Shown piece after piece: positions 2,236 to 30,185 of a DNA stretch of 64,000 nucleotides. The stretch spans positions 58,213 to 122,212 of the forward strand of contig CANJJD010000005.1 in assembly GCA_947474645.1 (NCBI GenBank). Direction: 5' to 3'. Under the pieces are notes generated by a model, which did no database searches, had not been told where the DNA came from, and saw only the letters and a program-made list of their open reading frames with translations. Position 1 is the first letter of the stretch; the number at the start of each line of letters is the position of its first letter. This DNA comes from Alphaproteobacteria bacterium. GTDB taxonomy: Bacteria > Pseudomonadota > Alphaproteobacteria > Micropepsales > Micropepsaceae. The position numbers and the translations under genes are program-made.

Positions 2236-2264
2236 TTGACGGGGCTGTGGAACTAAAGTAGAAC
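2236..2264 (+). promoter_or_regulatory. lexA promoter with embedded SOS (LexA) box
   Basis: TTGACG (2236-2241), 17 nt, TAGAAC (2259-2264); GAACTAAAGTAGAAC (2250-2264) fits the alphaproteobacterial GAAC-N7-GAAC LexA box. Confidence 0.88.
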
Positions 2265-2342: not shown

Positions 2343-3080
2343 ATGCTGACCCGCAAGCAGTACGAACTTCTCATGTTCATTCATGAGCGGGTGCGCGAAA
2401 GCGGCATACCGCCCTCCTTCGACGAGATGAAGGAAGCCCTGGATCTCAAGTCCAAGTCCGGCATCCACCGCCTGATCACCGCCCTGGAAGAGCGCGGCTT
2501 CCTGCGCCGCATGGAAAAGCGCGCCCGCGCCCTGGAAGTGCTCAAGCTGCCCGACAACATGGCCGAAACTTTGCGTCCCGCCACCACCCGCAGCCAGGTT
2601 CAGCGCGCCGGCGTCCGCCACGGCCGCGGCGGCGATATCCGCCTGGCCGATGCGCGTAGCCCAGCCCCCCGCCGCGGCTATGGCGAAGGCGGCGAAGGCG
2701 CCGTCAATGTCCCCCTGGTCGGCCGCATCGCCGCCGGCACCCCGATCGAGGCATTGCAGAACAAGGTCAGCGACATTCCCGTGCCCGGCGGCATGCTGGG
2801 ACGCGGCAGCCATTACGCCTTGGAAGTCACCGGCGATTCCATGATCAATGCCGGCATCCTGGACGGCGACACCGTCATCATCCAGGAATCCGATACCGCC
2901 AACACCGGCGAGATCATCGTCGCCCTGGTGGACAATGAAGAAGCCACCTTGAAGCGCCTGCGCCGCCGTGGCGACTCCATCGCGCTGGAAGCCGCCAATC
3001 CCGCTTACGAGACGCGCCTTTATGGCGCCGACCGGGTCAAGGTCCAGGGCAAGCTGGTCGGGCTGATCCGCAGATACTGA
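2343..3080 (+). CDS. lexA: SOS response repressor LexA
   Basis: [33 protein letters not shown]; cleavage site AAG, GDSM serine and TLKR lysine motifs. Confidence 0.97.
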
Positions 3081-25352: not shown

Positions 25353-25661
25353 CTAGAGCATAATTGCAATAATATATGCCCAAGTTACACCGACTATAAA
25401 ACTGCAGCTTGCAGCGACTAAACCAAATATCATGACGCCGTCGGAATACCCAGTTGCTGAAGGCGGTTTTGATCTATTGATCTGGTCTACAGCCCAGCCT
25501 AAGCACGCCGCGAAAAATCCAAAAAGGAAAAGTCCGCCGCAAACTTTTATGTCTAACGACACATGCTCCGACATTAGGCCTATGGCCCCAGCAACCCCTG
25601 CGCCGTTGAATGCAACAAGTGCCCGTATTGATTCAGCGCCAAATGGCGTAAGTTTGGCCAT
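25353..25661 (-). CDS. Small multi-pass membrane hypothetical protein, AT-richer than surroundings
   Basis: 102-aa ORF with about 3 hydrophobic segments; ATG 2 nt after dnaE stop. Confidence 0.65.
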   Translation of the reverse strand: MAKLTPFGAESIRALVAFNGAGVAGAIGLMSEHVSLDIKVCGGLFLFGFFAACLGWAVDQINRSKPPSATGYSDGVMIFGLVAASCSFIVGVTWAYIIAIML

Positions 25662-29162: not shown

Positions 29163-29267
29163 TCAGAGGGCGTGGTTCAGAACGACGTGGGCGCCATTGG
29201 CCAAAACAAAGGCCGACACCATGAAAAGGATCAATCCCGCGCCCGCCGCTGCATCCTTGGCCCACAT
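29163..29267 (-). CDS. 34-aa single-pass membrane micropeptide under SOS-box control (candidate SidA-like)
   Basis: MWAKDAAAGAGLILFMVSAFVLANGAHVVLNHAL*, SD-like GGGAG 9 nt upstream, promoter and LexA box immediately upstream. Confidence 0.7.
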   Translation of the reverse strand: MWAKDAAAGAGLILFMVSAFVLANGAHVVLNHAL

Positions 29268-29296
29268 GATCACGATCTCCCGCTTCGTTAGATTTT

Positions 29297-29325
29297 GTTC
29301 TACTTTGGTTCCTGTCGGAACGCAA
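29297..29325 (-). promoter_or_regulatory. Promoter with embedded SOS (LexA) box
   Basis: Minus strand TTGCGT (29325-29320), 17 nt, TAGAAC (29302-29297); LexA box GAACCAAAGTAGAAC at 29311-29297, one base different from the lexA box. Confidence 0.82.
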
Positions 29326-29480: not shown

Positions 29481-30185
29481 TTAACGCGGGAGCTGCGTAC
29501 CCTCGATCAGCTTGCCCTGGTGCAAGAGCAAAGCGCGATCCATCCGGGACGCCAGTTCGAAATTGTGGGTGGCGATCAGGGCCGCCAGGCCTTCGGCGCG
29601 GGTGATGGCGATCAGGGCGTCAAACACCCCGCCCGACGTCTTGGGATCCAGATTGCCGGTGGGCTCATCGGCCAGCAGCAGCCGCGGCTTGTTGGCCAGG
29701 GCGCGGGCGATGGCGACGCGCTGCTGCTCGCCGCCCGACAGTTGCGAAGGCCGGTGCGTCAAACGCTTGCCCAGTCCCAGCACACCCAGCAGCCGCGCGG
29801 CTTCCGCCGCCGCATCGGCACGGCTTCGGCCCGCGATCATCTGCGGCAGCACCACATTCTCCAAGGCGTCGAACTCCGGCAACAGGTGATGAGCCTGATA
29901 GACAAAGCCGATGGTCTCGCGGCGGATGCGGGTGCGCTCTGTATCATTGAGCTTGGAGGTGGCGGCGCCCGCGATCGTTATCTCGCCACTGGTCGGCGCT
30001 TCGAGCAGCCCCGCGATATGCAATAGCGAGGACTTGCCCGAGCCGCTTGGTCCCACCAGCGCCACGATCTCACCCGGCTTCAGCGACATGGAAAGACCGC
30101 TGAACACTTCCAGCTGGCCCTCGCCCTCGCGATAGAGACGGGTGATGTTGTCCAGACGTAATACGTCAGTCATGGGGCGCTTCAC
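29481..30185 (-). CDS. lolD: Lipoprotein-releasing ABC transporter ATP-binding protein
   Basis: [18 protein letters not shown] Walker [16 protein letters not shown] signature, [11 protein letters not shown]. Confidence 0.95.

Follow-up and report, generated by a model that had tools for sequence, protein, structure and literature searches.

A candidate SidA-type membrane micropeptide with a LexA box upstream of dnaE in an alphaproteobacterium

The 64,000-nucleotide stretch of alphaproteobacterial DNA analysed here (the window) carries, directly upstream of dnaE on the minus strand and behind an exact GAAC-N7-GAAC LexA box, a short ORF that we consider, with a probability of about 0.78, to encode a LexA-repressed peptide of the SidA family blocking FtsW/FtsI/FtsN-driven division after DNA damage. 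In Caulobacter crescentus, SidA is a 29-aa, LexA-regulated inner-membrane division inhibitor that acts on FtsW/FtsN (PMC4211646); its gene is CCNA_02004 (PMC10769358), and dnaE in Caulobacter is CC1926 (PMC1839093). The window peptide would be an additional SidA-type member, its function assigned by analogy. What lifts the locus above chance is its conservation, and not the box alone.

Table 1. Features at the micropeptide locus and at lexA, in window positions.
Feature	Position	Strand	Details
SidA-like membrane micropeptide ORF, 34 codons (MWAKDAAAGAGLILFMVSAFVLANGAHVVLNHAL)	29163..29267	-	ATG at 29267, stop codon ends at 29163
LexA box GAACCAAAGTAGAAC, 15 nt	29297..29311	-	exact GAAC-N7-GAAC, overlaps -10
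-35 hexamer TTGCGT	29320..29325	-	17 nt from -10; from sequence
-10 hexamer TAGAAC	29297..29302	-	overlaps second LexA half-site; from sequence
Shine-Dalgarno-like GGGAG	29277..29281	-	9 nt 5' of ATG
dnaE, replicative DNA polymerase III alpha subunit, 1138 aa	25664..29080	-	Pfam PF07733, PF17657, PF02811
lolD-like ABC ATPase, upstream neighbour (context)	29481..30185	-	Pfam ABC_tran
lexA, presumed repressor	2343..3080	+	Pfam LexA_DNA_bind and Peptidase_S24
lexA LexA box GAACTAAAGTAGAAC, reference operator	2250..2264	+	within TTGACG-N17-TAGAAC

The promoter-like pair, the box lying over its -10, the GGGAG motif and the 34-codon ORF had all been described in an earlier reading made from the letters of the window (the sequence-only reading), and on checking every detail was confirmed base for base (Table 1). 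Hydropathy and inspection indicate that the micropeptide has one hydrophobic helix. The gap between peptide and dnaE, which lie on the same strand, is 82 nt in the window, and no unusually stable fold was found between the peptide stop and the dnaE start (z 0.62), so SOS induction may also reach dnaE. Directly 3' of dnaE lies a 102-aa ORF with hydrophobic stretches (window 25353-25661, minus strand) and no Pfam match.

The sequence-only reading had also likened the micropeptide box to that of lexA, and the two indeed differ by one spacer base and share the same register. The exact GAAC-N7-GAAC pattern is not enriched in the window (2 occurrences versus 0.94 expected, with 22 of 100 shuffles reaching 2) or genome-wide (45 versus 58 for the reversed pattern), and box-only counts, being significant at neither scale, were therefore not used as evidence. 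Two overlapping LexA boxes precede recA of the window genome, and the motif also lies upstream of ssb (a gene identified by visual inspection of its sequence), occurrences that very probably mark GAAC-N7-GAAC as the LexA operator in this genome. The recA boxes share one half-site (GAACACCACAAGAACGCTGTGAGAAC; G000 contig C48:8999-9024). LexA boxes were also seen near ORFs in L023, L246 and L247 and were not assigned to SOS genes.

Conservation of box and frame in relatives, on which the sequence-only reading had staked its proposal, was borne out. Of 37 same-genus genomes, 35 gave a match to the peptide at E <= 0.006 in searches with the single sequence, which gave no convincing match in 24 genomes of other families; an order-wide profile search recovered it in 65 of 96 genomes (49 of the 60 of good quality). 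Among the other genera of the order, several carry the peptide, and in some it was not seen. The relatives' peptides are 31-35 aa long and lie upstream of dnaE, and in each of the 30 loci read an exact GAAC-N7-GAAC box precedes the peptide by 41-76 nt. The -35 is TTGACA or TTGACG in 16 relatives, its TTCTTG context is conserved, and most of the more distant relatives have a TTGACA- or TTGACG-type -35 together with a GGGAG-like Shine-Dalgarno motif. Among ten close relatives, pN/pS was 0.25 in the peptide frame, whereas reading the other two frames gave 1.23 and 2.38, and codon-position differences were 194/87/423; judged from these substitutions, the peptide reading frame, and only that frame, is under purifying selection. 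Four relatives have several hundred extra bases between peptide and dnaE, room for another gene.

We located the Caulobacter counterpart in a genome (G550) whose PopZ is 100% identical to a query sequence that we take to be PopZ of Caulobacter crescentus. The assignment is supported by its FtsW, in which the positions of the published suppressors are occupied by A31, F145 and A246. In this genome, at locus L238, dnaE is immediately preceded by a box (GAACATCTTGTGAAC) and an ORF that starts with ATG and encodes exactly 29 aa, and from its length, LexA box and locus we take this ORF as SidA. The analogy with SidA drawn in the sequence-only reading thereby gains support and becomes more than an analogy. 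A recognisable peptide was found upstream of dnaE in 27 of 28 Caulobacteraceae loci, L219 giving no match among those listed. Like SidA, the window peptide is encoded by a short ATG ORF that follows a LexA box and comes immediately before dnaE on its strand; again like SidA, it has, after a charged N-terminal start, a single hydrophobic stretch and next to no tail. Unlike SidA, it has 34 rather than 29 aa and begins W-A-K-D-A-A-A-G-A-G, a start that differs from that of SidA. Compared directly, window-genus peptides and Caulobacteraceae SidA did not score above transmembrane or ORF controls (hhalign 0.4%).

The two are joined through intermediate profiles and a single DnaE clade. A bridging profile that drew on other genera of the order and on other families, but on neither the window genus nor Caulobacteraceae, ranked the peptide first in 29 of 30 loci of the window genus and in 13 of the 14 from Caulobacteraceae. 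In hhalign, each step of the chain scored highly, from the window genus to other genera of the order (97%), from these to other families (96%) and from other families to Caulobacteraceae (95%), versus less than 2% for reversed-alignment controls. With peptides so short and hydrophobic, some of the sequence similarity can stem from helix composition alone. A short hydrophobic ORF stands behind an exact box in 17 of 105 dnaE upstream regions sampled across the class, and over all 133 regions, the 105 and 28 of Caulobacteraceae together, the box-ORF motif scored 34 where eight control motifs scored 0-4. A profile of 32 peptides from dnaE loci of the class (alignment A3), run over 385 whole alphaproteobacterial genomes, had all 30 of its best matches directly upstream of dnaE; among its short-ORF matches, 12 lay outside the profile itself, and of these an exact LexA box precedes 11 by 22-87 nt, while the box of the twelfth has one mismatch. 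Two further class matches (L288, L289) turned out to be parts of long ORFs with no box and were set aside. Outside the class, a phylum-wide search yielded only two matches, both weak.

The carriers of the peptide all fall into a single clade (support 0.969) of a DnaE tree built from 38 loci; the tree took only the families then in hand, those from later matches not being placed, so the true range of the family may be wider. No exact LexA box with peptide was found upstream of dnaE in genus g29 and most of genus g30, both of the window's order (L313, L315, L318-L320, L325, L326), which may reflect loss, divergence or relocation. Position, box, profile chain and DnaE clade are best read as the marks of one inherited gene, and the SidA family would thus be spread over much of Alphaproteobacteria at the dnaE position. 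Where the sequence-only reading had offered a functional analogue of SidA or else a new SOS membrane effector, common descent with SidA is indicated by the bridging profiles, the genome-wide linkage to dnaE and the DnaE tree.

Some loci depart from the common arrangement. G035 (L050 start, contig C12 near 59045) has the peptide twice in a tandem-like arrangement, the extra copy (WLKDLGAALGLVAFIASTSVLMDALSA) lying about 1.4 kb upstream of the copy linked to dnaE. G323 has a family-like peptide (MQIWLKDTLALVSLFALTWMGMAWIAVLDLT; L286, contig C77:7006-7077) with a one-mismatch LexA box on a contig other than that of dnaE, and this is possibly a relocated copy. Two exact LexA boxes in tandem precede the peptide in L268, L277, L284 and L285, which suggests tighter repression.

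In the mechanism that we propose, LexA on GAACCAAAGTAGAAC would, judging from the motif, cover the overlapping -10 and repress the promoter, which would be freed when DNA damage leads to RecA-stimulated cleavage of LexA. The 34-aa peptide would then be translated, inserted in the inner membrane as a single N-in helix and, if Caulobacter genetics is a guide, stall the FtsW/FtsI/FtsN septum-synthesis complex, so that cells would filament until repair is complete. Damage induction, membrane insertion, the FtsW target and the division block are each carried over from Caulobacter work and would apply here by analogy. FtsW is present in the window genome. The published Caulobacter FtsW changes that suppress SidA are A31K, F145L and A246T, and at these positions the window-genome FtsW has C31, L145 and A246, L145 being the residue of one of the suppressors; this set would neither prove nor exclude a SidA-type contact.

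A peptide of the same family, equally under SOS control and equally a single helix, might act on the membrane itself and not on the divisome, depolarising it or slowing growth much as TisB or DinQ does. That role would fit its length, hydrophobicity and SOS control just as well, DinQ being an SOS-regulated single-transmembrane toxic peptide (PMC3567139), and the contacts of the SidA target are not all kept in the FtsW of the window genome. We nevertheless consider such an action unlikely, given descent and a locus shared with SidA, a peptide that targets FtsW/FtsN (PMC4211646), and given a conserved polar W-x-K-D start and a fixed length that exceed the needs of a generic membrane-disturbing helix.

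Still less probable is that the ORF is a mere short leader and that the LexA box serves to induce dnaE after damage. Purifying selection acts on the amino-acid sequence, which can be recognised across families, the product at the equivalent place in Caulobacter is a proven inhibitor, and in the four relatives with the enlarged gap peptide and dnaE stand several hundred extra bases apart; these points outweigh, in our judgement, the shared strand and the closeness of dnaE in the window, the lack of an unusually stable fold before its start, and its constant presence downstream of the peptide. As for a chance ORF beside a chance box, which the unenriched box alone would allow in both window and genome, the fact that relatives keep box, frame and peptide alike makes it scarcely credible. 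A SidA-family division inhibitor thus stays the preferred reading.

Among other known systems, TisB and DinQ of E. coli resemble the window peptide as SOS-controlled single-helix membrane peptides, but are set apart by description as toxic membrane effectors under antisense-RNA control with no linkage to dnaE. YneA, SosA and ChiZ are likewise set apart by description, being larger, with extra domains or tails, and encoded at other loci. These proteins of Bacillus, Staphylococcus and Mycobacterium, respectively, are SOS-induced small membrane proteins with late-division-protein targets (PMC13396833). DidA of Caulobacter is a small single-helix, damage-induced division inhibitor (PMC4211646), but differs from the window peptide in being larger (71 aa), SOS-independent and driven by DriD instead of LexA, in acting on FtsN and in having no link to the locus upstream of dnaE.

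No Pfam or NCBIfam family matches the micropeptide, and in the literature searched, which mostly excluded subscription papers, the original SidA paper included, no description of SidA relatives beyond Caulobacter was found; the breadth of the SidA family thus appears undescribed in the searchable literature. ORFs of such size are easily overlooked by gene callers. SOS division inhibitors usually look unrelated across bacterial groups. Tentatively, and at odds clearly below even, we suggest that a division-blocking micropeptide and dnaE share one LexA-controlled transcript in much of Alphaproteobacteria, with SidA as one example. If this is true, the SOS response would couple a division brake to extra replicative polymerase in an ancient, class-typical checkpoint operon. 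The tie between SidA and a conserved peptide at dnaE in many alphaproteobacterial families lets the checkpoint be sought simply by position, from a LexA box, about 30 codons and dnaE, and supplies dozens of natural variants for mapping how such a short helix stops FtsW.
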